Part shown: piece by piece, positions 2 through 11,762 of the stretch
Position numbering within the stretch: position 1 is the stretch's first letter
Layout: each line of letters begins with the position of its first letter
Origin: a bacterium
GTDB taxonomy: Bacteria > Armatimonadota > Zipacnadia > Zipacnadales > Zipacnadaceae
DNA length: 11,762 nucleotides
Assembly (NCBI GenBank): GCA_030603495.1
Contig: JAUVXR010000047.1
Coordinates: forward strand, 1 to 11,762
Reading direction: 5' to 3'
The notes under the pieces: generated by a model
What the model saw: the letters and a program-made list of their open reading frames with translations, nothing else
What the model was told of the DNA's origin: nothing
The model's database searches: none
Program-made: the position numbers and the translations under genes

Positions 2-1177
2 TACGAGGACGAATTGCGAGAGATCAATTCAGGTTCACCGTGGAGGCAGGCGCGCGAGCGAGGAGAGACACATCCTGACTTGGTGCAATTCAATCGGGCA
101 TGGGGGGGACGGATGCCGAAGCGTGAAAACTGGATAGCTGCACCGATCGGGCAGGCCCATCCCGGTCGCCGCGTACTGGAGAAGGCGGCACGGGGCAACC
201 TGCGCACGGTGCGATTCAAGGCCATGCTCAGGGCAACCGACGTCCCGCGCCCGGCACTGATAAATGCTTTTGGGAAGTATGGCCCGACGCAACAGATCAA
301 TCAAGATGCGCTTCTCAGGCAACACGACCTGGCCGGCTTCCAGGTGGAGGTCGAGAAGATCATCAGTCGATTTCAGCCTGACCTGGTCGTGCTACAGGCA
401 CAGCGTGGCACCAATATGCTGCCGGCGACGGTATGGCAGCTGCGCGAGAAATGGCCCTGGATATTCTGGATGAATTTTGACGGTGACGTGCACGTGAAAA
501 TGGAGGAGCAGCCATTTTACTTTGAGATAGCGCGGGCCGTGCACCTCCAGACCGTGATTTCTCCCTCACTGTTCCCGCTGTATGCCTCGCGCGGTGTCGG
601 CGTGGCCTTCTGGCCCATCGGCATCGAGCCGGAATACATCCGGGAGCGCGGGCCGGTAGATGGGCCTGACGTGACCTTTCTGGGATCGTTGTATGGAGAA
701 GGAGTGTTCCCAGAGGCCGAGATGCGACGCGACGCCGTGGTGGCACTGGCAAAGAGCGGCCTGTCCCTCGGCCTATATGGCGGCGGGTGGCCCAGGGTCG
801 GGCTCGAGTCTAAATACACCGGTGAGAATCACACCGAGAACGCCGCGCTATACGCTGGCGCAAAGATGGCGCTCAGCATCTCGCAGAGCAAAGACCTGTG
901 GGGCTACACCTCCAACCGGCTGTATCAGATTTGCACTTGTGGCTGCCCGGCGCTGGTACAGCGATTCGTGGGAATGGAGGCGGGCGGCTACGTGGACGGC
1001 GAGACCTGCATCGCTTGGGCCACGACAGACGAGATGCTGGAGAAGGCGCGGTACTACGTGGCCCACGACACAGAACGCGAGCGCATCGGGGAAGCAGGGC
1101 GAGTGATGACGCTGGGCCGCCACACCTGGGCGCACCGGGTGGAGGCGCTGTTCGAGGTGATAGGGGGGCTGACGTGA
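2..1177 (+). CDS. CgeB-like / GT4-type glycosyltransferase, open at 5' edge
   Basis: Predicted cytoplasmic glycosyltransferase moving a sugar from a nucleotide-sugar donor to an unknown acceptor. The C-terminal half fits the Glyco_trans_1_2 (CgeB-like) pattern: FLGSLYG near nt 677-697, then YTSNRLYQ near nt 904-927 followed by a Cys/Gly-rich CTCGCP turn, a GxExC-like stretch and a closing HTWAHR segment. The N-terminal half has a Rossmann-like PDLVVLQA strand and a GIEP motif near nt 622-633. The reading frame is open to the left edge, so the gene may begin outside the window. In-window starts are TTG 14, with GAGG only 4 nt before it, and ATG 113. The segment before ATG 113, ending FNRAWGG, resembles the C-terminal end of many GT2 enzymes, so a two-domain enzyme is possible. 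The stop overlaps the next gene by 4 nt. Family call is fairly sure; start and acceptor are unknown. Confidence 0.72.
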   Translation, partial: YEDELREINSGSPWRQARERGETHPDLVQFNRAWGGRMPKRENWIAAPIGQAHPGRRVLEKAARGNLRTVRFKAMLRATDVPRPALINAFGKYGPTQQINQDALLRQHDLAGFQVEVEKIISRFQPDLVVLQAQRGTNMLPATVWQLREKWPWIFWMNFDGDVHVKMEEQPFYFEIARAVHLQTVISPSLFPLYASRGVGVAFWPIGIEPEYIRERGPVDGPDVTFLGSLYGEGVFPEAEMRRDAVVALAKSGLSLGLYGGGWPRVGLESKYTGENHTENAALYAGAKMALSISQSKDLWGYTSNRLYQICTCGCPALVQRFVGMEAGGYVDGETCIAWATTDEMLEKARYYVAHDTERERIGEAGRVMTLGRHTWAHRVEALFEVIGGLT

Positions 1178-1386
1178 GCGATGCTTGTACCTGTGACAAA
1201 GAGAGAGAGTTACGAGGCATCATCGTCTTGAATGGCGTAACCCGCGCACGGTTTGAGGAGCTTAAACGTGATCTCGAGATGGCGCTGGAGAGTAAGTCAT
1301 TCGAGGACGGGCTGTTGATACTCCACGAGGTGCCAGAAGTGCTTTACATTCCAGTTGGAGGCAAAAATGACCAGGCGAGCGATTAG
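1174..1386 (+). CDS. Small hypothetical protein (70 aa)
   Basis: I do not recognise this protein. The chosen start is the GTG at 1174, which overlaps the TGA of the upstream glycosyltransferase as GTGA; a purine-rich AGGGGG at 1162-1167 is well placed as ribosome binding site. The product begins SDACTCDKERELRG, contains a central helix-forming segment (RFEELKRDLEMALESK) and ends in a strand-rich part (EVLYIPVGG) followed by NDQASD. There is no signal peptide or membrane segment. Its TAG stop lies inside the first copy of the junction repeat, which also holds the ATG of the next gene, so translation of the two is probably coupled. The tight overlaps on both sides are the main reason to believe it is real. 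It is probably a small phage accessory protein. Confidence 0.6.
   Translation: MSDACTCDKERELRGIIVLNGVTRARFEELKRDLEMALESKSFEDGLLILHEVPEVLYIPVGGKNDQASD
1367..1386 (+). repeat. Gene-junction repeat, copy 1
   Basis: Twenty bases reading ATGACCAGGCGAGCGATTAG. The first three bases start the Cys/His protein gene and the last three are the stop of the 70-residue gene, one frame apart. It matches copies 2 and 4 at 16 of 20 positions. Confidence 0.6.
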
Positions 1387-1603
1387 AGTACCACCAGGCA
1401 GGACGGTCACATCGGCAGATCTGGGTATGCACCCGCAACCAGGCGGAGGTCCCACTTGTTGCACCGGTTTCTGTTCCAAGCGGGCCACGATGCGGGCCAC
1501 ATTCGGCAAGCGCGGATGGGCCTATCTGTGTGACGAGCACTGGCAGGGGGTCAGGGCCAGCGGCATGTGGGGGCACGCTATGACCGACTTTCGGGAGATA
1601 TGA
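1367..1603 (+). CDS. Small Cys/His protein, possibly zinc-binding (78 aa)
   Basis: Small protein of unknown function. ATG 1367 is chosen because GGAGG at 1357-1361 lies 5 nt upstream; the in-frame TTG at 1355 has no comparable site. The sequence has a CC-x3-C cluster (C31, C32, C36) and a later C-x2-H pair (C55, H58, in LCDEHW). This spacing, two metal-ligand pairs about 18 residues apart, is what small treble-clef-like or zinc-ribbon-like phage proteins often show. The N-terminus is basic (MTRRAIRVPPGR). Metal binding is inferred from cysteine spacing only; no named family is claimed. The stop codon sits at the start of the next gene (ATATGATG), a close coupling typical of this operon. Confidence 0.6.
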   Translation: MTRRAIRVPPGRTVTSADLGMHPQPGGGPTCCTGFCSKRATMRATFGKRGWAYLCDEHWQGVRASGMWGHAMTDFREI

Positions 1604-1622
1604 TGACCAAGCCAGCGGTTAG
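1603..1622 (+). repeat. Gene-junction repeat, copy 2
   Basis: Twenty bases reading ATGACCAAGCCAGCGGTTAG, at the start of the 129-residue protein gene. It differs from copy 4 at one base. Here the final TAG is not the stop of the upstream gene, which ends at 1603. Confidence 0.65.
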
Positions 1623-1992
1623 TATGATCCTGAATAGTCAGACCGGCTTATTCATCGGCGACGAGCCATTGCTACAAGTCTGTGTCAGCGGGATCAAGTG
1701 GTATCACGTGGGGGCTGCCGAGGTCGAGGTTTTTGGCCCATTCCCAGAGGCCCGCGCGGCGATGGAAAAGATTGTAGAGGGCAGTGACATCGACATCGTC
1801 GCAATATGCTGTGGGGCAAAGCGGAGATGCCGCCGTGATAACCAGCCCTTAATGTCGCTCAGACACATTCGCAATATCGAGCGGCGCATCGACCATCCTG
1901 TGGTATTGAGTCCCGATGATCTTGGCCGCTTGATGATTCGGGCATCATTCAATTGTGTATTGGAGTTTGCAGACTATGACCAAGCCACTTAG
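1603..1992 (+). CDS. Hypothetical protein (129 aa)
   Basis: Not recognised. The start ATG 1603 has GGGAG at 1593-1597 upstream with 5 nt spacing; ATG 1600 in the same frame would add one Met, and a farther ATG at 1567 lies inside the preceding gene. The protein looks like a small soluble alpha/beta domain: a strand-rich N-terminal third (LLQVCVSGIKWYHVGAAEV), a helix around FPEARAAMEKIVEG, a strand DIDIVAICCG, then a basic patch (KRRCRRD) and a mixed C-terminal part. No transmembrane segment or export signal is visible. The N-terminus, MTKPAVSMI, is nearly identical at DNA level to that of the GT2 gene at 2250, although the rest is unrelated. The TAG stop lies within the third junction repeat and overlaps the next gene by 17 nt. 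Confidence 0.6.
   Translation: MTKPAVSMILNSQTGLFIGDEPLLQVCVSGIKWYHVGAAEVEVFGPFPEARAAMEKIVEGSDIDIVAICCGAKRRCRRDNQPLMSLRHIRNIERRIDHPVVLSPDDLGRLMIRASFNCVLEFADYDQAT
1976..1992 (+). repeat. Gene-junction repeat, copy 3 (3 nt shorter)
   Basis: Seventeen bases, ATGACCAAGCCACTTAG. The first twelve are identical to copies 2 and 4 and the rest is three bases shorter. It provides the start of the 97-residue gene and the TAG of the 129-residue gene. Confidence 0.55.
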
Positions 1993-2269
1993 TGTGAGCG
2001 ACAAACAGAGGCATCGAGCGGTCTGGCGCGAGTTCTGGAATCGCTATGTCGGCAAATACCGTAGCAGATTAGAGGCACATCAGCGTATACAGATTTATGG
2101 CGATGCGCTGAAAGCAGGTCATACACACGATAGAGCCTATGCCCTGGCCATTGCACCAGATGCTCAATTGCCAGATATTGTTTTCGAGGTAGCGGGCCGT
2201 TCCCGTGGTGGAGGATGTGCAATGTGCGCAAGGATTGCGAGAGGTGCAAATGACCAAGCCAGCAGTTAG
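1976..2269 (+). CDS. Hypothetical basic protein (97 aa)
   Basis: Not recognised. ATG 1976 gives MTKPLSVSDKQRHRAVW; TGGAG at 1961-1965 is about 10 nt upstream, and an earlier in-frame GTG at 1955 has no better site. The first two thirds are strongly basic and helix-prone (RHRAVWREFWNRYVGKYRSRLEAHQR), rich in aromatic residues, and could bind nucleic acid or protein. The C-terminal part is Gly/Arg-rich with a CAMC pair (C86/C89 region) and ends GANDQASS. The last codons are created by the fourth junction repeat, where the TAG stop overlaps the start of the GT2 gene by 20 nt. Codon use resembles the neighbours less well than in the large genes, so confidence is moderate. Confidence 0.55.
   Translation: MTKPLSVSDKQRHRAVWREFWNRYVGKYRSRLEAHQRIQIYGDALKAGHTHDRAYALAIAPDAQLPDIVFEVAGRSRGGGCAMCARIARGANDQASS
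2250..2269 (+). repeat. Gene-junction repeat, copy 4
   Basis: Twenty bases, ATGACCAAGCCAGCAGTTAG. They start the GT2 gene (MTKPAVS, a natural GT2 N-terminus) and end the 97-residue gene. Since MTKPAVSIITP is a typical GT2 beginning, this may be the original copy from which the others derive. Confidence 0.65.
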
Positions 2270-3485
2270 CATAATCACACCAGTTCGGGCCACCAATGAA
2301 CAGCACGTCGAATGGTTGCACGGGGCGGTGGGCAGCGTCGTGGCGCAATCGGCGAGTGATTGGGAGATGGTCATAGTTGACGACCATTCTACTGTTGAAT
2401 TGCCACGTTATGTCGATGAAGGTATCACAATTCTCCAGGCTACGGGCAATGGCGCAAGTGCCGCCCGCAACCAGGCGGCAGAGGCAGCGCGGTCTGACCT
2501 GTTGCTACCCCTGGACGCCGACGACCAGCTTGCACCGAACGCGCTTGAGACATTCCTGAAAGCCTGGGAAGGTCGCGGCGATGCCGGTATCATCTATAGC
2601 GACATCGTGATGTTTGGGCAGGATTTTGCCCGCGTGTACCTTGCGCCCGAGTACAGTTTTAGGACGTTACTCAAGGCTACATTTATGCTCGTCGGCAGCC
2701 TCCATCTCAAAGCTGACTGGCAGCGTGTCGGCGGCTGGCGACCGGACATGGAGGGCGGCTTGGAGGACTGGGAATACTGGCTGGCGATGGGCGAGATGGG
2801 TGTGTGTGGCAAGCGCGTGCCCGAGCCGCTATATTGGTACCGCCGGCGGGCGGGCGGACGGCTGGCGGCGCTCAAGGCTGACCCGACACGCTGGCACAAG
2901 GCGTACCAGAAGATGCGGGCGCTACACACAGATTCGTACAACGGGAGGTTTCCGATGGGTTGTTGTGGAGGAGCGGCACAATCAGTACCGAAGCGGCCGC
3001 GGGCGGGCACGCAGCCGCCACAGATCACAGGTGACAGGGTGCCCATCGTCTACATCGGCGCGAGGAAGGGCGACTTTTGGATAGTGGGCCAGACGAGCCG
3101 CGTCCGGTATCACATCATGGGCCAGGGTGAGTTCCTGGCTGACGATAGAGGCCGTGTCGGTGTGGACCGGCGCGACGTGCAGGCATTCACTTCGATGAAT
3201 CGGGGCCGCAACTTTAAGGTGGTCCATCCGCCAGCACCAGCAGCGCCGAAGCCGGTAGCACAAGCCGTGCCAGAAAAGAGCGAGGCGTGGGAGCCGGTGG
3301 CGATGGAGGAGCAGCGCGTCACGGTGAGCGTTCCACAGCCAGGCCCTGGCGACCTGACGCTCAAACAGTTGCGGGCATTGAAAAACCTGACCGCCAAAGA
3401 TGCACTGCGGATGCTGGGGGAGGAGCGAGGCAACAGGAATCGCGTGGGTGCTATTCGTTTCTTGGAGAAGGTGGCCGGTGGTTGA
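2250..3485 (+). CDS. GT2 glycosyltransferase fused to a phage small-protein domain
   Basis: A 411-residue fusion. Residues 1 to about 225 form a family 2 (GT-A) glycosyltransferase: AVSIITPVR at 5-13, VIVDD at 41-45, the donor/metal DAD motif at 89-91 in LPLDADD, and the ED catalytic-base region at 172-173 (GGLEDWEYW). Residues 236-411 differ: an MGCCGG start at 236-241, an SH3-like strand-rich block at about 262-326 (YIGARKGDFWIVG to VDRRDVQAF), a Pro/Ala linker at about 327-366, and a helical end at 368-408. The second half resembles small phage proteins from memory, not from a search. ATG 2250 is chosen for GAGAGG at 2239-2244; GTG 2205 is farther upstream in frame. An internal ribosome binding site precedes codon 236. 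It overlaps the previous gene by 20 nt and the next by 8 nt. GT2 identity is secure; acceptor unknown. Confidence 0.85.
   Translation: MTKPAVSIITPVRATNEQHVEWLHGAVGSVVAQSASDWEMVIVDDHSTVELPRYVDEGITILQATGNGASAARNQAAEAARSDLLLPLDADDQLAPNALETFLKAWEGRGDAGIIYSDIVMFGQDFARVYLAPEYSFRTLLKATFMLVGSLHLKADWQRVGGWRPDMEGGLEDWEYWLAMGEMGVCGKRVPEPLYWYRRRAGGRLAALKADPTRWHKAYQKMRALHTDSYNGRFPMGCCGGAAQSVPKRPRAGTQPPQITGDRVPIVYIGARKGDFWIVGQTSRVRYHIMGQGEFLADDRGRVGVDRRDVQAFTSMNRGRNFKVVHPPAPAAPKPVAQAVPEKSEAWEPVAMEEQRVTVSVPQPGPGDLTLKQLRALKNLTAKDALRMLGEERGNRNRVGAIRFLEKVAGG
2943..2957 (+). promoter_or_regulatory. Internal ribosome binding site inside the GT2 fusion gene
   Basis: GGGAGG at 2943-2948 lies 6 nt before an in-frame ATG at 2955. 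That ATG is exactly the first residue of the MGCCGG phage-type domain, so initiation here would release a separate 176-residue protein (2955-3485) in addition to the full fusion. Confidence 0.5.
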
Positions 3486-3726
3486 ACTAATATCGAGTGA
3501 CGTTAGACCGTTCCCAATCCAGCAGGGAAAACCGCGACGGAACAATGAAGGCGCATTGATAATACCGCATTGCAGTTTTATTCCGTGGTGGTTGGCAGCA
3601 GAAGCATACAAGAGTTACGTTGCACAGTTTGGTGATTCACAGTCTTTGGAACGCTTGGCGGAACGTGGTGGATTTGGGCGGAATGAATTGTTGCAATTGT
3701 TGAGGTTTAGTAATGAGCCCTCGTGA
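3478..3726 (+). CDS. Small conserved-looking phage protein (82 aa)
   Basis: The only suitable start is GTG 3478, with GGAG at 3464-3467 upstream; it overlaps the end of the GT2 gene by 8 nt. The protein has an aromatic/hydrophobic middle (HCSFIPWWLAAEAYKSYVAQFG) followed by a compact motif SQSLERLAERGGFGRNELLQLL. That motif recalls small helical proteins near phage head/tail genes, which I know by pattern but cannot name. No signal peptide or metal site is evident. The base composition is clearly more AT-rich than the flanking glycosyltransferase genes, suggesting a different origin. Its stop overlaps the next gene by 14 nt. Real gene likely; function unknown. Confidence 0.65.
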   Translation: MVELISSDVRPFPIQQGKPRRNNEGALIIPHCSFIPWWLAAEAYKSYVAQFGDSQSLERLAERGGFGRNELLQLLRFSNEPS

Positions 3727-4444
3727 CTACAGAATCCGCGCCGTCTGCTATGGCACGGATGGGCGGCATACTACGCGCAAGATGGTGCCGTGCCTGCGTG
3801 AGCTAGAGGCGCTGTTGCAGAAGCTGCCAGGCGTCGAGGTCGCGGCGTGGACGATGGACAAGTTGATGCAGACGATGTACTGGACGGCACATAAGAAGCT
3901 TGCTACCGGCCCGACCTGCGGGCACAAATCGTGGAAGGCATACATCGTAATGCGTGAGTTGCTGAACGTGGACGAGGGAGACGTGGTTCTCTACTTAGAC
4001 GCCGACATACGCTGGCGTCCGGGCGTGGACCTGTTAGCTCGATTCGTGGATGTGGCGAAGGAGCGGGGAATTGTACTGCGCCGTTCCAGATTCAAGAACA
4101 GGGAATTTACACAGCGCGACACGTTTGTCTGCATGGGGATGAACGAAGAAAAGTATTGGAAAGCCCCCCAGGTCTTCGGCGGCATGTTGGCATTCGAGCG
4201 CGGCAACCGTGCGCTTCGATTCGTCCACGACTGGCTCGTGGCTTCATTGTCCTATGATGTGATCACTGCCAAGAAGAGCACGCGTGGCAAAGAGTTTCCA
4301 ACTTTCTGTGCACATCGGCGGGAACAAAGCATCCTGTCGACTCTAGCCGTACACTATGACGTGGAACTATATCAGGCCGACGATGTATTCGTTCACAAAA
4401 ACCGGTGCGGTGCAGAGCCGCCAGGATACGAGGCGAGAGAATGA
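3713..4444 (+). CDS. Glycosyltransferase-like protein with DxD motif (243 aa)
   Basis: Probable GT-A-fold glycosyltransferase acting on a nucleotide sugar in the cytoplasm. Visible features: a KSWKAYIVMRELL segment at 72-84, then DEGDVVLYLDADIRW with the metal-binding DAD at 96-98, a FGGMLAFERG segment at 155-164, and HRREQSIL at 201-208. This order (K-x-W-K, GD-x3-Y-x-D-x-D, GG, H-x-x-QS) is seen in a broad group of uncharacterised polysaccharide-type glycosyltransferases; I do not assign a CAZy family. Start ATG 3713 has GAGG at 3702-3705 with 7 nt spacing. The stop overlaps the next start as ATGA, so it is translationally coupled to the UDP-sulfoquinovose synthase gene. That makes it a candidate, though unproven, sulfoquinovosyltransferase. 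Confidence 0.7.
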   Translation: MSPRDYRIRAVCYGTDGRHTTRKMVPCLRELEALLQKLPGVEVAAWTMDKLMQTMYWTAHKKLATGPTCGHKSWKAYIVMRELLNVDEGDVVLYLDADIRWRPGVDLLARFVDVAKERGIVLRRSRFKNREFTQRDTFVCMGMNEEKYWKAPQVFGGMLAFERGNRALRFVHDWLVASLSYDVITAKKSTRGKEFPTFCAHRREQSILSTLAVHYDVELYQADDVFVHKNRCGAEPPGYEARE

Positions 4445-5625
4445 AAGTCTACATCGCCGGGATCGACGGCTACCTGGGCTGGCCACTGGCGCAATGCCTG
4501 GCGGCACGTGGTCACGAGATTGCTGGAGGGGATTGCCTCTTACGCCGTAGGTGGGTGACGGAGATGGGTAGCCATAGCGCCATTCCTATCGCGCCCATGC
4601 GGGAGAGGCAGGCAGCTTTCGAGAAGCATTTCGGTGGGTTCACATACCGAGAGGGCAACGTACAGAATTACGCCTTCGTGAAAGAGGCTTTTCGGGCATT
4701 CCAGCCCGACGCCATCGTGCACTTGGCCGAATGTCCATCGGCACCGTACTCGATGATCGACGTACACCACGCTGTATGGACACAGACCAATAATATCGTA
4801 TCCACGCTCAATATACTCTTTGCCATGCGCGACGTATGCCCACAGGCGCACCTGGTCAAACTTGGCACGATGGGCGAGTACGGCACACCGAATCTGGACA
4901 TCCCAGAAGGATCCTTCGAGATCGAGTACCGGGGCCGCACTGAGACGCTGCCATTCCCACGCCAGGCCGGGAGTTGGTATCACCTGTCCAAGGTACACGA
5001 CTCCCACAACGTGGCTTTTGCGTGCAAGATATGGGGGCTGCGCAGCACAGACATCATGCAGGGCGTCGTGTTCGGCACACGCATAGACGAGATGGGTGAC
5101 GATCCGCGACTACTCACCCGCCTGGACTTTGACGAGGGCTTTGGTACGGTGATCAATCGCTACTGCTGCCAAGCCGTCATCGGTCACCCGTTGACGCCAT
5201 TCGGGCAGGGCCAGCAACGGCGCGGCTTCCTACCGCTGCGCGATTCGATGCAGTGCATGACGCTGGCCATCGAGAATCCGCCAGGGGCCGGTGAGTACAG
5301 AGTGTTCAACCAGTTCGAGGAGGTATACAACGTCACCGAGCTGGCGCACAAAGTCCGGGCGGCGGGCGAAGAATTGGGCCTCGACGTCAAAGTGCGCAGG
5401 ATCGAAAACCCACGCCTGGAGATGGAGGAGCACTATTACAACCCAGATCACGAGCACCTGCTGGATTTGGGATACCAACCCACGCCAGTAGATGGGGAGC
5501 TGCACGTCATGCTGGCTGACTTGATGGAGCACCGTGCCCGCATCGAGGAAAAGCGCAATGTGCTGATACCGGCGATTCGCTGGGATGGCACGCGGCAACG
5601 GTCACAGTTTTTGAGCGAGGAATAG
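4441..5625 (+). CDS. sqdB: UDP-sulfoquinovose synthase (SqdB/SQD1 family)
   Basis: Converts UDP-glucose and sulfite to UDP-sulfoquinovose (EC 3.13.1.1), the activated sulfonated sugar used for sulfolipid and, in some archaea, for protein glycans. It is an extended short-chain dehydrogenase of 394 residues, full length for the family. NAD-binding G-x-x-G-x-x-G is at 7-13 (GIDGYLG). The hallmark block LGTMGEYGTPN is at 141-151, and WYHLSKVHDSH at 179-189 supplies the catalytic Tyr and Lys: T143, Y180, K184, with the same spacing as T145/Y182/K186 of Arabidopsis SQD1. SAPYSMID at 100-107 and the C-terminal EYRVFNQFEE and EEHYYNPDH blocks also match the family. The plant-type EQRS before APYSM is ECPS here. 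ATG 4441 overlaps the upstream stop by 4 nt. A sqdB gene in a phage structural operon is unusual. Confidence 0.95.
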   Translation: MKVYIAGIDGYLGWPLAQCLAARGHEIAGGDCLLRRRWVTEMGSHSAIPIAPMRERQAAFEKHFGGFTYREGNVQNYAFVKEAFRAFQPDAIVHLAECPSAPYSMIDVHHAVWTQTNNIVSTLNILFAMRDVCPQAHLVKLGTMGEYGTPNLDIPEGSFEIEYRGRTETLPFPRQAGSWYHLSKVHDSHNVAFACKIWGLRSTDIMQGVVFGTRIDEMGDDPRLLTRLDFDEGFGTVINRYCCQAVIGHPLTPFGQGQQRRGFLPLRDSMQCMTLAIENPPGAGEYRVFNQFEEVYNVTELAHKVRAAGEELGLDVKVRRIENPRLEMEEHYYNPDHEHLLDLGYQPTPVDGELHVMLADLMEHRARIEEKRNVLIPAIRWDGTRQRSQFLSEE

Positions 5626-5626
5626 G

Positions 5627-6409
5627 ATGCAATCACTACGCACTCACGACGGCAAGATGACCATGGCCGAATGGTGGGCAGATCAGGAGAAGAGAAGGCG
5701 CAAACGGCGCATGACCTATCCCTTCGAGCCGTTCATCGAGCCCGGTGACCTGGCCTTCGACATCGGGGCGAGCCGGGGTGTGATGACCATCCTCCTCCGC
5801 TGGCTGGGGGCGCGGGTCATCGCGGTCGATCCACTGTACGTCGCTGCGCCGCAATACGTGCGAGAATTTGGCTGGAAGTTTGGCAAAGATAGCGACGTGA
5901 CCGCCGTGGCGAAGGCCGTCAGTGACCACGAGAATGGGACGACGCTACACGTCCACCGTAATCTGCCGTCCTACAGCACCATGGATAATACCTACCGGAC
6001 GCAGGGAGCACACGCCAGGTACTTTAACGACAAAGTTTGCTCCAAAGTGAGAGTGCCGACTACCACGCTCGATGCACTGATCACCAAGTATGGTGAGCCG
6101 GTATTCATCAAGATCGATGTGGAGGGCCACGAGGAATCAGTCATTCGCGGCTTGAGCGTGCCGGTACGGGCGCTCAATTTCGAGTTCCATCAGGACCGGC
6201 TGCGTATGGTTCTCAGCGCCACGCAGCGCCTCGACTCATTGGCGGACTATGAGTACAACTGGTCCACGAATCAAAGTTCTTTCAGGATCAAGGATGGATG
6301 GCTGGCCAGTGCTGAACTGCTGGTATATCTGCGGGCGAACCTGACCAAGAGTGGAGAGGGGGCATGGGGCGACATCTATTGTCGGCGTAGGGATGTGCAA
6401 TGGACATGA
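5627..6409 (+). CDS. FkbM family methyltransferase
   Basis: A 260-residue SAM-dependent methyltransferase of the FkbM family, typically O-methylating sugars or polyketide/glycan hydroxyls. The SAM-binding motif I is DIGASRG at 45-51, followed by the strand ARVIAVDP at 62-69. The family's second hallmark is VPTTTLDALITKYG at 143-156 followed by FIKIDVEGHEE at 160-170. A basic N-terminal stretch (EKRRRKRR, 21-28) precedes the domain. The start ATG 5627 lies one base after the upstream TAG, with GAGG at 5617-5620. Position directly after sqdB and two or three glycosyltransferases suggests that it methylates a sugar made or transferred by those enzymes (inference). The last 10 nt overlap the next gene. 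The acceptor is not visible from sequence. Confidence 0.88.
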   Translation: MQSLRTHDGKMTMAEWWADQEKRRRKRRMTYPFEPFIEPGDLAFDIGASRGVMTILLRWLGARVIAVDPLYVAAPQYVREFGWKFGKDSDVTAVAKAVSDHENGTTLHVHRNLPSYSTMDNTYRTQGAHARYFNDKVCSKVRVPTTTLDALITKYGEPVFIKIDVEGHEESVIRGLSVPVRALNFEFHQDRLRMVLSATQRLDSLADYEYNWSTNQSSFRIKDGWLASAELLVYLRANLTKSGEGAWGDIYCRRRDVQWT

Positions 6410-7059: not shown

Positions 7060-8286
7060 ATGGCACGCAGTGACACACTAACCTTGCTACCGCTGGATGC
7101 TTATGCCAAACTGATGGCGATCCAGCAATGTGCTTTCAACCAGGTGTACAACCCAACCGTGGCCTACCCGCAACCGTGTAACGCGGTGTGGCTGCAATCG
7201 GCTTGGGTGGGCACATCGGCACGGCTTGTCGGGCGTGACGAGATCGCCACGGCGATCAACATGGCCGAGGAGATGATAGCGCAGGCGCTCGGTTTCTGGC
7301 CTGCGCCCACCTGGCTCACCGGTGAACAACAGCCCTGGCCCATTCCCAGGCGCGGGGCGCAGGTCACGTATCCGCCATTCAAGTTGAATTGGGGCCACAT
7401 TATAGGTGCCGGGGTGGAGAATAGCATAGCCATCCTCACCGACGAACCAATTACCTACACTGACCGTGACGGCGATGGCGTGCTGGACACAGCCACCATC
7501 ACCATCACAGCGGCAGAGATGGCGGCGGCGGGTGCGGCGTGGAACGAGATCGCGGTGTACTATCCGTCCGTGTACCTGGACTGGTCACCGTGGCCGCGTG
7601 ACGAATCGTGGCGCATCAAGCCGCTAAAGATCGCACTCGATCCGGTAACCGGCAACGTAGAGCTGACCGGCAGCCGGTGCCAGTTCGTGCGGCCTGACCT
7701 GTGGGACACCGATAATGCTATAGACCAGAGTGACGCGCCATCATTCATAGCGGCGGTGGACATCTACCGCCGCTATCACGACACGACGCAGCAGGCACAA
7801 CTGGTGTGGCAGTCGCTCGGCGATTGCCTGGACCCGCCGTGTGGCGAGACTTGTCAAACGGCCTGTGTCCAGGTTGGTGATCAGCGCAACAGCATCGTGA
7901 AAGTGATACCGGCGACGTACAGCGCTGGAGCCTGGACATACAATACATTTAGCCAGTGCTGCGTACTACCGGATTTTACGCGCACCTGGTATCTATCCGG
8001 CTTCTACAAGAAGTTGGCCGGATGGATGGAAGCGGACTTATTGGCACAGTACAATCCGGCGATGGCCCAGGCCATCGCGCGGCTGGCAAACACCTACCTT
8101 CCAGAGGCTCCCTGTGACTGCCAGATGACGCAGGCGCGGTGGAAGCGTGACCGGGAAGAGATGGACATCAATAACTTGGACACGGCGCTGGCTATGAGCG
8201 CCTTCGGCACGACCATGCGTGGTGCGGTGTTCGCGTGGTCGGTGATAAAACGACTGAATCCACTCGCAGGAGTGGGGACGCTTTAG
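7060..8286 (+). CDS. Phage structural protein, connector/adaptor-like, Cys-rich (408 aa)
   Basis: Probably a virion structural protein, judged mainly from its place directly before the tail tube gene. The helical N-terminal part, DEIATAINMAEEMIAQALGFWPAPTWL at about 60-86 in pieces, recalls head-tail connectors of the gp6/adaptor type. Residues 135-143 form a DxDxDGxxD calcium-loop motif (TDRDGDGVLD) inside a beta-rich segment with TATITIT. Cysteines are frequent: C256, C261, C265, C269, the pair C300/C301, and C352/C354. The C-terminal end is helical. ATG 7060 is chosen for AAGGAG at 7047-7052; the longer frame to 6940 would overlap the previous gene. The exact role (connector, stopper or other neck protein) is not proven; a tail-tip or decoration role is possible. 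Confidence 0.6.
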   Translation: MARSDTLTLLPLDAYAKLMAIQQCAFNQVYNPTVAYPQPCNAVWLQSAWVGTSARLVGRDEIATAINMAEEMIAQALGFWPAPTWLTGEQQPWPIPRRGAQVTYPPFKLNWGHIIGAGVENSIAILTDEPITYTDRDGDGVLDTATITITAAEMAAAGAAWNEIAVYYPSVYLDWSPWPRDESWRIKPLKIALDPVTGNVELTGSRCQFVRPDLWDTDNAIDQSDAPSFIAAVDIYRRYHDTTQQAQLVWQSLGDCLDPPCGETCQTACVQVGDQRNSIVKVIPATYSAGAWTYNTFSQCCVLPDFTRTWYLSGFYKKLAGWMEADLLAQYNPAMAQAIARLANTYLPEAPCDCQMTQARWKRDREEMDINNLDTALAMSAFGTTMRGAVFAWSVIKRLNPLAGVGTL

Positions 8287-8305: not shown

Positions 8306-9817
8306 ATGGCCGAGAACGTAATCGAAGCATCTGAGCAGGGGCTTTTTGTGCAGGAGAACCCATCGAGCGTGACGGAACCGCTGACCTGCATCGGCATCGG
8401 GGACGTGACGATCCCCAAGGGTGAACGCACCATCGTCTACTGTCCCGCTGCGCTGGCGGGGAAATATGATGCAGCGGGCTTCATCACAGGCGAGGCCGGG
8501 CCGGTGACGCTGCAAATCACCCGCCCGCTGAGCGCTGTGTACAATTATCTACTGGAAACCGTGTGCGCCGGGGCCTACCGCGTCAACGTGGTGTGCCCAG
8601 AGACATCGAGACACCTGGTCACTAACTACCTGTGGGCGCTGTTGCTGTACGGCGGTGAGTTTACGACCGGCGGCATCACGGGCCTGATGGCATTGCAACC
8701 GGCTGACAACGCACGGGTCAACACGACCGGCGACCTGGCTGCACTCAACGCCGATTTCATCAAGCGACTACAGAGCATCCGCCAGACGTTGACGCAGGTA
8801 CAGGACGTGAATGGCATCGATATGCTGCCGCGCTCCTGTGGTACCAAGTGTGGTGTGTACCGGTCACTGTGCCACGAGGGCTACGCCGTGCTGGACACAG
8901 ACTATCTCGGCGTGTATGGCGACACAGTGCTGTGGACCGAGGACGGCGGCGCAATCTGGACGCCAACGCCAACCAGTCCGTTTGCCTACATCGGGCGTAA
9001 CGCCACGGACGTGGAGACTATCGTCACATCGGGTGGCCATCGCGTCATCGTGTCGGGTGGCGCAGTGCCGGGCGCTCCGCCGGAGATCGCATACAGCGAC
9101 GACGGCGGCGCACTATGGTACAACGTCTTTCCCGAGGCCGGGCTGGGCACAGCCAATCGGGGTGTCAACGCGCTGGCCTGGGATGCGCGGCTGAGGCTGT
9201 GGGCAGCGGCGGACGATGGCAGAATCTACGTCAGCACGAACCTCGGCACAGCCTGGAGCATAGCCGAGGCAGGCGTGGAGACAATCCAGGACCTGAACGA
9301 CATCGTGTTCTACACCGACCTGATTGGCTATGCGGTCGGCGACTCTGCCGTAGCGCCTGCAACCGGCGCGTTTCTGCGGACGACCGATGGGGCTACGTGG
9401 GACCTGCTCCCTGGGCCGGTCGCTGGCGTAAACCTGCTATCGGTGGCGGTCAACCGCTATGGTCACGTGTTCGTCGGCACCAACGATGCGCGCGTGTTCC
9501 GCAGCGTGGATGGTGGAGTGACCTGGGAAGAGATGGTAGACTTTGGCTGCGGCACAGTGGACGTGATCGAGTTCGAGCCGAACAACCGGTACGTCGGCTA
9601 CTTAGCGTGGACCAACTGCTCGAATGACGGGTTCATGTACCGCACCGAGGATGGCGGCAACACCTGGCTGGCCGGCGAGATCGGCCTGACCACGCCCGCC
9701 AACAATGGCATCTATGCACTGGCGATATGTGACGCCAATAATCTCTTTGCCGGTGGCAACGTGCACGCCGGTACATCCTGGATCGCCAGATACTCACCGG
9801 TAACGACACCGGTCTAG
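8306..9817 (+). CDS. Major tail tube protein fused to Asp-box beta-propeller
   Basis: A 503-residue two-domain virion protein. Residues 1 to about 165 look like a phage major tail tube domain: the CIGIGDVTIPKGERTIVYCP block (28-47) and the GEAGPVTLQI turn-strand (62-71) match a pattern I know from siphovirus tail proteins. A Cys-rich linker (C178, C182, C189) leads to a propeller with six Asp-box (S/T-x-D-x-G-x-x-W) repeats ending at W218, W271, W317 (degenerate), W365, W407 and W454, spaced 42-53 residues apart, as in BNR/Ycf48-like proteins. AGGAGG at 8291-8296 precedes ATG 8306; ATG 8298 is out of frame and short. If the tube call is right, many propellers would project along the tail, possibly contacting glycans. 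Propeller is secure, tube domain likely. Confidence 0.78.
   Translation: MAENVIEASEQGLFVQENPSSVTEPLTCIGIGDVTIPKGERTIVYCPAALAGKYDAAGFITGEAGPVTLQITRPLSAVYNYLLETVCAGAYRVNVVCPETSRHLVTNYLWALLLYGGEFTTGGITGLMALQPADNARVNTTGDLAALNADFIKRLQSIRQTLTQVQDVNGIDMLPRSCGTKCGVYRSLCHEGYAVLDTDYLGVYGDTVLWTEDGGAIWTPTPTSPFAYIGRNATDVETIVTSGGHRVIVSGGAVPGAPPEIAYSDDGGALWYNVFPEAGLGTANRGVNALAWDARLRLWAAADDGRIYVSTNLGTAWSIAEAGVETIQDLNDIVFYTDLIGYAVGDSAVAPATGAFLRTTDGATWDLLPGPVAGVNLLSVAVNRYGHVFVGTNDARVFRSVDGGVTWEEMVDFGCGTVDVIEFEPNNRYVGYLAWTNCSNDGFMYRTEDGGNTWLAGEIGLTTPANNGIYALAICDANNLFAGGNVHAGTSWIARYSPVTTPV
8936..9667 (+). repeat. Six Asp-box (BNR/Ycf48-like) repeats
   Basis: Protein-level repeats of about 42-53 residues, each with an S/T-x-D-x-G-x-x-W box: TEDGGAIW, SDDGGALW, STNLGTAW (degenerate), TTDGATW (one residue shorter), SVDGGVTW and TEDGGNTW. 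They form the propeller part of the tail tube fusion. Confidence 0.8.
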
Positions 9818-9826
9818 TGAGGGCCT

Positions 9827-10531
9827 ATGTATGAACTAGAGTTCAGTGGCGGGGCGTGGCTACGGCTGCGCCCCGTCCCTACCCACGTTTATCTGATGTT
9901 TCGCGGCCAGATATTGGCCAAGAAAGTGATTGGCATCGGGCCAAAACCAGATCCACCGATGGTCGAGGTCAGAATGAAGGCCGGCCACATCGAACGGCAG
10001 CCAGCCGGTGAGGATGCGCCAGAATACCAGGAGTTCGCGGCACGGCGCGATGAATGGCAAGCCCGGCACGACGAGGTGATGGCCGATGCCAACGCTGACT
10101 GGGTGATGCTATGCCGCGATTATGCCGTGGTGGAATGGTCGCACGACGACCGCGTGACCTGGGCACAGGATGTGCCAGAGGACTGGCAGCCAAGCGGAGC
10201 AGTGACACGTGCGGGTATTCAGTTATCCGACAATCTACGGGCGGAGTACATCAGCCTGGTACTCTGTCAATCCTGGCAAGATCACGAGGCGCTGACCAAT
10301 ATCGCCGAGGCTAGAGTCAACGACATCGCCGACGAGGAGGTGGCCGCCGTCCTGGCCGGGTTTCGGCTTGGCGCTAGACGAACGGGGCACGCCGTTGCCA
10401 CAGCCGGCACCGACCGGCATCCTCCACAGCGGCTTCCACGAACAAATGGCGGCGGCGCGCGCCTGGGGAAAAGACCCAGATGGCTGGTACGCCTGTTCGC
10501 GGGGCGCAAGGGCGGCGATGATGGCGTTTGA
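9827..10531 (+). CDS. Tail assembly chaperone, unshifted product (G-like)
   Basis: Located between the tail tube and tape measure genes, the canonical position of the tail assembly chaperone (lambda G/GT arrangement). ATG 9827 follows GAGGG at 9819-9823. Residues 1-60 are beta-rich (LEFSGGAWLRLRPVP, VYLMFRGQIL); residues 63-180 are acidic and mostly helical (EYQEFAARRDEWQARHDEV, DEEVAAVLAG). After F179 the composition changes abruptly to Arg/Gly/Pro-rich sequence up to the stop, which looks like reading in the wrong frame. A well-formed coding sequence continues in the +1 frame from 10365. The short unshifted product would carry a basic tail of about 55 residues. Function is inferred from order and the frameshift arrangement, not from a recognised domain. 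Confidence 0.65.
   Translation: MYELEFSGGAWLRLRPVPTHVYLMFRGQILAKKVIGIGPKPDPPMVEVRMKAGHIERQPAGEDAPEYQEFAARRDEWQARHDEVMADANADWVMLCRDYAVVEWSHDDRVTWAQDVPEDWQPSGAVTRAGIQLSDNLRAEYISLVLCQSWQDHEALTNIAEARVNDIADEEVAAVLAGFRLGARRTGHAVATAGTDRHPPQRLPRTNGGGARLGKRPRWLVRLFAGRKGGDDGV
10358..10366 (+). promoter_or_regulatory. Candidate +1 ribosomal frameshift site GGG TTT CGG
   Basis: In the chaperone frame the codons are GGG TTT CGG. A tRNA-Phe on TTT can re-pair with TTC one base later, and CGG is a rare, slow Arg codon in many bacteria. The TTT CG core equals the established +1 site of influenza PA-X (UCC UUU CGU). AGGAGG lies 20 nt upstream at 10335-10340. A 5-bp hairpin (10381-10385 with 10392-10396) and another (10403-10407 with 10414-10418) lie downstream; both are weak. 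Confidence 0.5.
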
Positions 10532-10580
10532 GCGGGCAGCGGGGCAGATCGCGGAGGCACTAAAGAGCGATGGCGGCTAA
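10365..10580 (+). CDS. Tail assembly chaperone, frameshift extension (T-like)
   Basis: Coding sequence in the +1 frame relative to the chaperone gene, 71 residues after a shift at TTT 10361, giving a fused product of about 250 residues (179 + 71). The segment reads GLALDERGTPLPQPAPTG, then a helical HEQMAAARAWGKDPDGWYACSRG and AAMMAFERAAGQIAEALK, balanced in composition, unlike the zero frame over the same bases. The frame is closed upstream by TGA 10293, and no convincing independent start exists: TTG 10368 and ATG 10446 lack ribosome binding sites. In lambda-like phages the shifted product binds tail tube and tape measure proteins. Its stop overlaps the tape measure start by 11 nt. A sequencing error or real mutation are the alternatives. 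Confidence 0.55.
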   Translation, partial: GLALDERGTPLPQPAPTGILHSGFHEQMAAARAWGKDPDGWYACSRGARAAMMAFERAAGQIAEALKSDGG

Positions 10581-11762
10581 TCCAGAGAGGTTCGGCGTTG
10601 AGGCAACGTTCGGCACAGCGGCCTTCGAGCGCGGCGTGCGGACGTATGAGCGTGCGCTCACTCGTGCCGAAAAGGTGACACTGGCCTTTGCCCGTGGCTC
10701 TACCAGGGCAGTCGGTGAGGCTGACCGGGCGACGAAGAAGGGCACCAAAAATATGATTCGCTCATTCACCGACGTCAGGGCAGCTATAGACGTGGCCCTG
10801 CGGGCACTGCGCACGTTTGGGCGGGTAGCGAGGGCGGCCTACGATGCGATACGTGAAGGCGCAGAGAGATTGAGAACGCGGCGTGTCTTTGCACAGTTAA
10901 CCGCCGATATTGGCGGCGCAGCAAAGACGCTGGAAGTGATGCGCACAGCCACGCGCAGCGCGGCGTCAGACCAGGCGCTCATGGAACAGGCCACGGGGTT
11001 ACTCACACTCAAGATCGTCAAGAATTCAGAGGAGTTGGGAAAGGCAGCACGTAGCATCACGACCGTGGCGAACTTAGTCAAAGGCTTCTCGGCAGAGCGA
11101 GCCATCCAAAGCTTTACCCTGCTGACATCAAACTTTGAATCCTCCAAGTTGCGCCTCGATGACTTTGGCTTGACGCTAGACGACGTGCAACCAAAGATCG
11201 ACCGATACGCGGCGTCTGGTGCATCGGCGTCGGAAGCCATCCGGCTGGCACTATTGGAGGCGGTAGACGAAAAGTTCATTGAGTTGGGCGGCAGCGTGGA
11301 GGATGCGGCGCTGGCGATGGATCAGTTGGAAGCCAGCGCGGCTAACGTGAGCGGTCAATTCAAGCAATCACTCGCGCCGGCGATGACGATCTTCATCGAC
11401 CAGTTTCTCCTCGGCCTGACGGGCATCGAGGAGCAAACCGCCGCTTTCGACAAGTTGGCGAGTACGCTAATCAAAATCTCTGCCTACTTCGTGGCAAAGA
11501 ATAAGGCGCTAGAGGCAGGCCGGCGGGGCGAGGATGCCTCACTGGTGTTCCAAGAAGCATACAACGCGGCGCTGGAACGTGGCTTTGGTATCATGAAGCA
11601 AGCCACACGCGGACAGAAGGCACTCGCCAAGGCGACCAAAGAGGCCGGTGATGCAAGCGCGGAAGCGGGTGAGGATTGGGAAAAGTACTCGGATAAGCTG
11701 GAGCAACTGCGCATCCGTGGCTTGGAGCAATTGGTACAGCAGGCCATAGCCGCAGAACGCCA
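10570..11762 (+). CDS. Tape measure protein, 3' end beyond window
   Basis: An open reading frame running to the right edge (397 complete codons), so only the N-terminal part is seen. ATG 10570 overlaps the chaperone extension stop by 11 nt; a weak AAAGAG precedes it. The translation begins MAANPERFGVEATFG, is highly helical and rich in Ala, Arg, Lys and Glu with little Cys or aromatic content, and has the T-x-A-x-RxxA-type heptads and the F-x-A-x-L-TADIGGAA and ALAMDQLEAS-like stretches usual in tail tape measure proteins (ruler of tail length and channel for DNA release). Coiled-coil-like sequence near the edge (KYSDKLEQLRIRGLEQLVQQA). Position right after the chaperone pair supports the assignment. 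Full length, transmembrane part and any hydrolase domain are not visible here. Confidence 0.8.
   Translation, partial: MAANPERFGVEATFGTAAFERGVRTYERALTRAEKVTLAFARGSTRAVGEADRATKKGTKNMIRSFTDVRAAIDVALRALRTFGRVARAAYDAIREGAERLRTRRVFAQLTADIGGAAKTLEVMRTATRSAASDQALMEQATGLLTLKIVKNSEELGKAARSITTVANLVKGFSAERAIQSFTLLTSNFESSKLRLDDFGLTLDDVQPKIDRYAASGASASEAIRLALLEAVDEKFIELGGSVEDAALAMDQLEASAANVSGQFKQSLAPAMTIFIDQFLLGLTGIEEQTAAFDKLASTLIKISAYFVAKNKALEAGRRGEDASLVFQEAYNAALERGFGIMKQATRGQKALAKATKEAGDASAEAGEDWEKYSDKLEQLRIRGLEQLVQQAIAAER

Follow-up and report, generated by a model that had tools for sequence, protein, structure and literature searches.

The window analysed here is the whole of contig C53, 11.8 kb (11,762 nucleotides) of a 2.67-Mb genome bin. 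It carries a gene for an SQD1-type UDP-sugar enzyme, a putative UDP-sulfoquinovose synthase, which is co-oriented and overlapping with its neighbours and lies beside glycosyltransferase genes in a phage late-gene region (Table 1). The start of this gene, called SQD1 below, overlaps the end of the upstream gene GT3713 by 4 bases, and the FkbM gene begins 1 base after its end. GC3 is uniform over the window genes, at 0.67-0.76.

Table 1. Features of the window. L205 is a locus of the sibling phage described in the text.
Position	Strand	Feature	Evidence
2..1177	+	GT2-GT4-like fusion glycosyltransferase, C-terminal part	PF13524 1.5e-22
1355..2269 (1355-1603, about 1594-1992, 1955-2269)	+	Three small overlapping ORFs	ORF list
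2250..3485	+	Family 2 glycosyltransferase with C-terminal extension	PF00535 1e-19
3713..4444	+	GT3713, putative glycosyltransferase with LDAD (DxD-like) motif	Viral matches
4441..5625	+	SQD1-type UDP-sugar enzyme, putative UDP-sulfoquinovose synthase, 394 aa	NF041015, PDB 1qrr/1i24, residue table
5627..6409	+	FkbM-type SAM methyltransferase	TIGR01444 4.8e-21, PF05050 2.8e-12, phrog_8156 2.8e-15; 45% to L205
6400..6705	+	Small phage protein, phrog_781 family	phrog_781 6.5e-6; 46% to L205
6731..7048	+	Small ORF	ORF list
7060..8286	+	Phage protein retained in sibling	49% to L205:17603-18799
8306..9817	+	Phage protein, Ycf48/BNR-like repeats in C-terminal part	PF14870 2.1e-8, phrog_8700 3.2e-9; 27% to L205
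9827..10580 (9827-10531, 10368-10580, +1)	+	Tail-chaperone-like overlapping frame pair	ORF list, sequence
10570..11762	+	Start of a long protein, tape-measure position, open at contig end	ORF list

The phage setting extends beyond the window. C57, another contig of the same bin, begins with 83 bases whose reverse complement is exactly the first 83 bases of C53, and the first ORF of the window continues a GT2 ORF of C57. The N-terminal GT2 half of the fusion glycosyltransferase is found there (L177:1-655, minus strand; PF00535, 1.2e-21), its frame runs continuously through the 83-bp overlap, and in the sibling phage (L205) the fusion is a single ORF of 578 aa. Read towards the window, C57 encodes a terminase large subunit (TerL), a portal-like protein, head genes, a capsid-like protein, a sulfotransferase, a methyltransferase and the GT2. 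TerL is matched by PF20441 (1.4e-14), PF03237 (8.3e-9) and phrog_2 (7.4e-18), the sulfotransferase by PF03567 (2.6e-5, above its cut-off), and the methyltransferase by PF08241 (1.7e-8). Portal and capsid are names given by position and on weak evidence: portal PHROGs match a relative of the portal-like protein at 0.0012, and a model of the capsid family from 7 sequences was poor (pLDDT 42.5), with top PDB matches that were nearly all phage capsids, none of them significant. TerL has 27 relatives in IMG/VR, the closest 92% identical, and a search of 101 genomes (the bin and 100 related genomes) returned, outside the bin, just two weak matches, of 27-33% identity over partial lengths. The capsid-like gene of C57 (L177, minus, around 2401-3900) shows one frame break relative to its IMG/VR relatives, which is either an assembly error or the mark of a decayed copy. 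The reading frames of TerL and of the window genes are open. Through C57 and the 83-bp overlap the region thus has a TerL with head genes in order, as in the late region of a tailed phage, and the SQD1 gene sits inside a genome segment of an uncultured tailed phage. The sequence-only reading had placed it in a phage structural operon, and this is confirmed mainly from outside the window, by the TerL and head genes of C57 and by a co-linear sibling phage.

The last genes of the window are candidates for a tail chaperone and a tape measure; their position, size and overlapping-frame architecture would fit, and no homologue or profile match to them was found. ORFs 7060, 8306, 9827 and 10570 gave no significant match to a named structural family. 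The structural genes of the window, searched alone, found no homologue in viral contigs or phages except one 28% match (ORF 8306), nor did genomes of the same phylum or of relatives yield any. Position alone suggests a structural role for ORF 7060, and position also suggests a tail role for ORF 8306, for which a single-sequence AlphaFold model reached a pLDDT of only 31.5. The frame pair that follows is tail-chaperone-like by its architecture, and no homologue of it was found. Its overlapping +1 frames directly precede the ORF in the tape-measure position and contain a GGG-AAA-A run at 10466-10472, resembling the programmed frameshift of tail assembly chaperones. That last ORF is a candidate tape measure by position and composition only; PHROG and profile searches with it gave no match, and neither did a profile-profile comparison with tape-measure proteins from other phages that carry SQD1. 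At the other end of the window, the small ORFs between the first two glycosyltransferase genes matched neither a family nor a locus.

The SQD1 reading frame is intact. NF041015, the NCBIfam equivalog for UDP-sulfoquinovose synthase (SQD1/SqdB/Agl3), matches the protein end to end (E 1e-163, profile positions 1-383 of 384), and the Arabidopsis SQD1 structures 1qrr and 1i24 in the PDB match it over its full length (E 1.5e-123). The NF041015 score of 544.8 bits misses the curated equivalog cut-off of 575 bits. Residues were compared in an alignment of the window enzyme with 137 relatives and SQD1. The GxxGxxG NAD motif is present (G7, G10, G13), the catalytic Thr145, Tyr182 and Lys186 correspond to T143, Y180 and K184, and His94, Thr143, Met144, Glu146, Tyr147, Ser178, Tyr180, His181 and Lys184 are all retained. 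The enzyme shares with Arabidopsis SQD1 (1qrr, 1i24) the GxxGxxG motif, the Thr/Tyr/Lys triad and the GTMGEYGTPN and YHLSK blocks. It differs from the plant enzyme in having Pro99 for Arg101 and Met206 for Asn208, and its gene is phage-borne and stands without a visible sulfolipid partner gene. With Agl3 of Sulfolobus acidocaldarius it shares the equivalents of His95, Met145, Glu147, Tyr148, Tyr182 and Lys186 (PMC4388408); the first four, all required in Agl3, are H94, M144, E146 and Y147 in the window enzyme (numbering per PMC4388408). In Agl3, alanine at His95, Arg101, Met145, Tyr182 or Lys186 abolishes activity, E147A and Y148A impair the enzyme, and T144A leaves it active (PMC4388408). The window enzyme has Pro in place of Arg101, which mutation shows to be essential in Agl3. 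Agl3 belongs to archaeal N-glycosylation, whereas the window enzyme is set among phage late genes. The sequence-only reading was right about a full-length gene with its catalytic triad and NAD motif, and wrong that the family-specific blocks are intact, given the loss of Arg101.

The substitution at position 101 is widely shared. Pro occupies this position in 42/42 bacterial relatives from the clade of the window enzyme and in 28/28 members of the largest viral-only clade; the clade that includes cyanobacterial SqdB has it in 13 of its 16 rows. Across the SQD1-family sequences sampled, most have Pro there, all the close bacterial relatives among them. Judged from the alignment, the Arg101-to-Pro caution is one that extends to the whole bacterial sister clade. 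A literature search found no activity test of a Pro-type SQD1 enzyme.

The product of the window enzyme is uncertain, because a residue essential in Agl3 is replaced and the score falls below the equivalog cut-off. These same points, with R101A abolishing Agl3 activity (PMC4388408) and Pro invariant in the bacterial relatives and in the largest viral-only clade, would fit an SQD1-fold group that makes another UDP-hexose, such as a UDP-4-keto, 5,6-ene or epimerised sugar, in place of UDP-sulfoquinovose. However, every other residue that is conserved in SQD1 and was tested in Agl3 is kept, the cyanobacterial SqdB clade also has Pro in most of its rows, and an alanine scan does not prove that Pro is inactive at this position. 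We consider a different product somewhat doubtful, and the window enzyme probably makes UDP-sulfoquinovose. An active synthase had been called likely from the sequence; the triad speaks for this, the substitution and the missed cut-off speak against it, and synthase activity is plausible.

Relatives of the enzyme are encoded by 62 contigs in IMG/VR, at 37-65% identity, and by at least 589 loci in bacterial and archaeal genomes, at up to 69% identity. A tblastn search of INPHARED (50,697 annotated phages) found an SQD1 relative in none of them at that sensitivity. A close SQD1 is absent from the 14 same-genus and same-family genomes searched and present in one same-order genome. In a tree of 138 sequences, the window enzyme falls in a 50-row set (SH-aLRT 96) together with 42 bacterial and 7 viral sequences, the bacterial ones coming from Chloroflexota, Thermodesulfobacteriota, Gemmatimonadota, Acidobacteriota and others. 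Two groups are exclusively viral. The larger, of 28 rows, has a support of 80 (95 for 26 of these rows) and stands apart from the window's set; the smaller, of 17 rows and support 98, is sister to the clade with cyanobacterial SqdB. Both keep the active-site residues. Within the clade of the window enzyme the best tree requires 5 viral/cellular changes, and a single viral origin of the 8 nearest phage sequences occurs in 0% of bootstraps; the AU test does not reject one viral group (p-AU 0.18).

The surroundings of the viral genes differ between groups. L003 and L007 each carry SQD1 within a sugar cassette that has a major-head or virion structural protein on one side and neck or tail genes on the other. 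In L002, tail sheath and tube genes are upstream of it and a tape-measure gene is downstream, and L022 also has a tape-measure gene downstream. Pfam matches around ten such viral SQD1 genes are most often to GT2, methyltransferase and GT4 families, and four are to sulfotransferases; 109 of 117 SQD1 neighbours in viral loci share its strand. Where flanks are readable in the 28-row group, SQD1 lies in a conserved DNA replication module with a PD-(D/E)XK nuclease, an AAA ATPase, a ParB/DNA methylase, a uracil-DNA glycosylase-PolA fusion and DUF3987; the IMG/VR loci of this type are L015, L018, L021, L023, L025, L026, L028 and L037. A role in DNA modification or in early modification of the host surface are possibilities for these enzymes. 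SQD1 of the 17-row group is often accompanied by genes for NeuB, a cytidylyltransferase and a UDP-GlcNAc 2-epimerase. Loci with such genes are L039, L041, L043, L044, L053, L056, L060 and L017, and these phage cassettes seem to combine nonulosonic acids with sulfoquinovose-type sugars.

One viral locus bears on the source of sulfite. In L010, a phage contig with TerL, a CysH-type PAPS reductase gene (PF01507, 1e-40; L010:9357-10004) overlaps the start of SQD1 (10001 onwards), and its product could supply sulfite or a precursor of it. Sulfite supply as a general partner function of SQD1 was rejected, since L010 is the only one of 50 viral SQD1 records with a PAPS reductase. The bin has one PAPS_reduct-domain gene, at 54 bits.

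The closest view of the cassette comes from a sibling phage, IMGVR_UViG_3300017963_000372 (46 kb; L179, L205), which is co-linear with C57 and the window. It shares the gene order from TerL to ORF 8306 and the same cassette backbone. On the head side, identities are 66% for TerL, 65% for the portal-like and 66% for the capsid-like protein. In the cassette they are 41% for the sulfotransferase, 45% for the methyltransferase, 67% for the GT2 of C57, 57% for the GT4-like part and 51% for the GT2 of the window (to L205:15278-16399, with 45% in the C-terminal extension); values for FkbM, the phrog_781 protein and ORFs 7060 and 8306 are in Table 1. In the sibling, the GT2 (15251-16561) and FkbM (16548-17321) genes overlap, whereas in the window they are separated by GT3713 and SQD1. 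Exactly this one pair is missing from the sibling, whose cassette carries a different nucleotide-sugar epimerase (phrog_540, 3.3e-64). GT3713-SQD1 is a unit present in the window phage and absent from a close sibling in an otherwise co-linear region, and the pair is therefore a sugar module gained in the window phage or lost in the sibling. No full SQD1 gene was found in 28 phage records related by TerL or capsid, several of which are fragments. The metagenome of the sibling, 3300017963, is also the source of the SQD1-bearing phage contig L017, where SQD1 adjoins NeuB-like, UDP-GlcNAc 2-epimerase-like and terminase/portal-like ORFs.

We infer that GT3713 is a glycosyltransferase. A Pfam search with it gave no match. 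It is 28.6% identical to a protein of marine virus AG-345-E08 (2e-21) and 25% identical to one of cyanophage P-TIM68 (7e-13), and the P-TIM68 match sits among putative glycosyltransferase genes.

It is quite possible, if short of probable, that the phage produces UDP-sulfoquinovose, or a close UDP-hexose product, to feed its own glycosyltransferases, which would modify virion proteins. The cassette between the capsid-region gene and the downstream late genes comprises the sulfotransferase, methyltransferase, GT2-GT4 fusion, GT2, GT3713, SQD1 and FkbM, and its glycosyltransferases are co-directional with the structural genes, an arrangement kept in the sibling. The SQD1-type enzyme would bind NAD and UDP-glucose and, with sulfite, form UDP-sulfoquinovose or a close UDP-hexose; GT3713 would use this sugar; the sulfotransferase and methyltransferases would further cap the glycan; and a virion protein would receive it, giving the particle an anionic glycan coat. 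A virion protein is the most likely target because head and tail genes stand in line with the cassette and are probably expressed together with it, and recurrence in unrelated phages and the precedent of mycobacteriophages point the same way. As an acceptor it is nevertheless put forward only tentatively. The late-gene position is only suggestive as a link to virion proteins; the position of SQD1 is not tied to structural genes, and in two other viral clades it lies near replication or NeuB/cytidylyltransferase genes.

In Che8-type mycobacteriophages, glycosyltransferases encoded by the phage are known to glycosylate the virion (cited in PMC11256854). The proposal for the window phage is similar in that the phage-encoded glycosyltransferases of Che8 and other mycobacteriophages act on capsid proteins. 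It differs in that no sulfonated-sugar enzyme is described for these mycobacteriophages, and in that the glycosyltransferases of Maravista are near the 3' end (PMC11256854), whereas those of the window phage are between capsid and tail genes. A closer parallel was published in 2020 from the Cariaco Basin, where a putative UDP-sulfoquinovose synthase was reported in a Mu-like phage and another on a separate contig; the role proposed was N-glycosylation of host proteins (PMC7785012). Like the window phage, this virus carries an SQD1-type gene proposed for glycosylation. Unlike the window phage, it is Mu-like, and the accessible part of the report has no comparison with a co-linear sibling (PMC7785012). 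Between this report and the 62 IMG/VR contigs, the earlier remark that no described phage pathway of this kind was known does not fully hold.

The main rival to virion modification is modification of the host surface. Here the cassette sugar would go onto a surface polysaccharide or lipid carrier in a serotype-conversion-like manner, excluding other phages or altering the cell surface. PHROG matches to 'GtrB-like O-antigen conversion' do occur in the cassette (phrog_841, 5.8e-8 for the C57 GT2 and 0.0033 for the window GT2), and some bacterial SQD1 relatives adjoin GT2, epimerase and Polysacc_synt genes. But the annotated genes of the cassette include none recognised as a flippase or as an integral membrane protein of the GtrA/GtrC type, and in several unrelated phages the cassette is flanked by head and tail genes. 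We regard a host surface glycan as an unlikely acceptor, and the host-surface reading as a whole as unlikely too.

SQD1/SqdB makes the sulfolipid head group in phototrophs, and the phage might by this route boost host sulfolipid (SQDG) synthesis during infection, as the sequence-only reading had suggested. The cassette gives this no support: an SqdX-type Glycos_transf_1 gene was not found in it, and its glycosyltransferases are PF13524, PF00535 and one unassigned phage type. The window enzyme also falls outside the cyanobacterial SqdB clade, and close SQD1 genes are missing from the same-genus and same-family genomes noted above, so a sulfolipid role is very improbable. That the region is a chimeric contig or a host island next to a decayed prophage is the least credible reading and was rejected, for although the contig is binned with a bacterial genome and the capsid-like gene has its frame break, an independent phage contig is co-linear on both sides of SQD1, the genes are co-directional and overlapping with uniform GC3, SQD1 is absent elsewhere in the bin, and the gain or loss of a module within a co-linear phage cassette argues strongly against it.

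Phage sugar cassettes are of a known kind, and most of what is known of sulfoquinovose concerns sulfolipids and archaeal glycans. What is new here is the GT3713-SQD1 unit recognised by comparison with a sibling, the recurrence of SQD1 between capsid genes and tail genes, the existence of two clades made up only of viral sequences, and the caution over the replacement of Arg101 by Pro. The sibling pair, with and without GT3713-SQD1 and otherwise co-linear, makes the question directly testable through glycan products. The recurrence of SQD1 relatives in phage contigs suggests, as far as predicted genes go, that phages may decorate their particles or hosts with an unusual acidic sugar. On a bolder reading, which we hold to be rather unlikely, phages would be a long-standing reservoir of UDP-sulfoquinovose synthases, making sulfonated sugars that are worn on the virion or put on DNA or host surfaces; it is just as speculative that this history would include repeated captures of SQD1 into capsid-to-tail cassettes, beside the clade that has a conserved place in a replication module. 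If true, sulfonated sugars used in this way would be a chemical coat of a new class for phages. Should phages recurrently carry a gene for activated sulfoquinovose within glycan cassettes, they would gain a sulfonated coat of strong acidity or a new sugar for surface conversion, and organosulfur chemistry would gain a viral branch.
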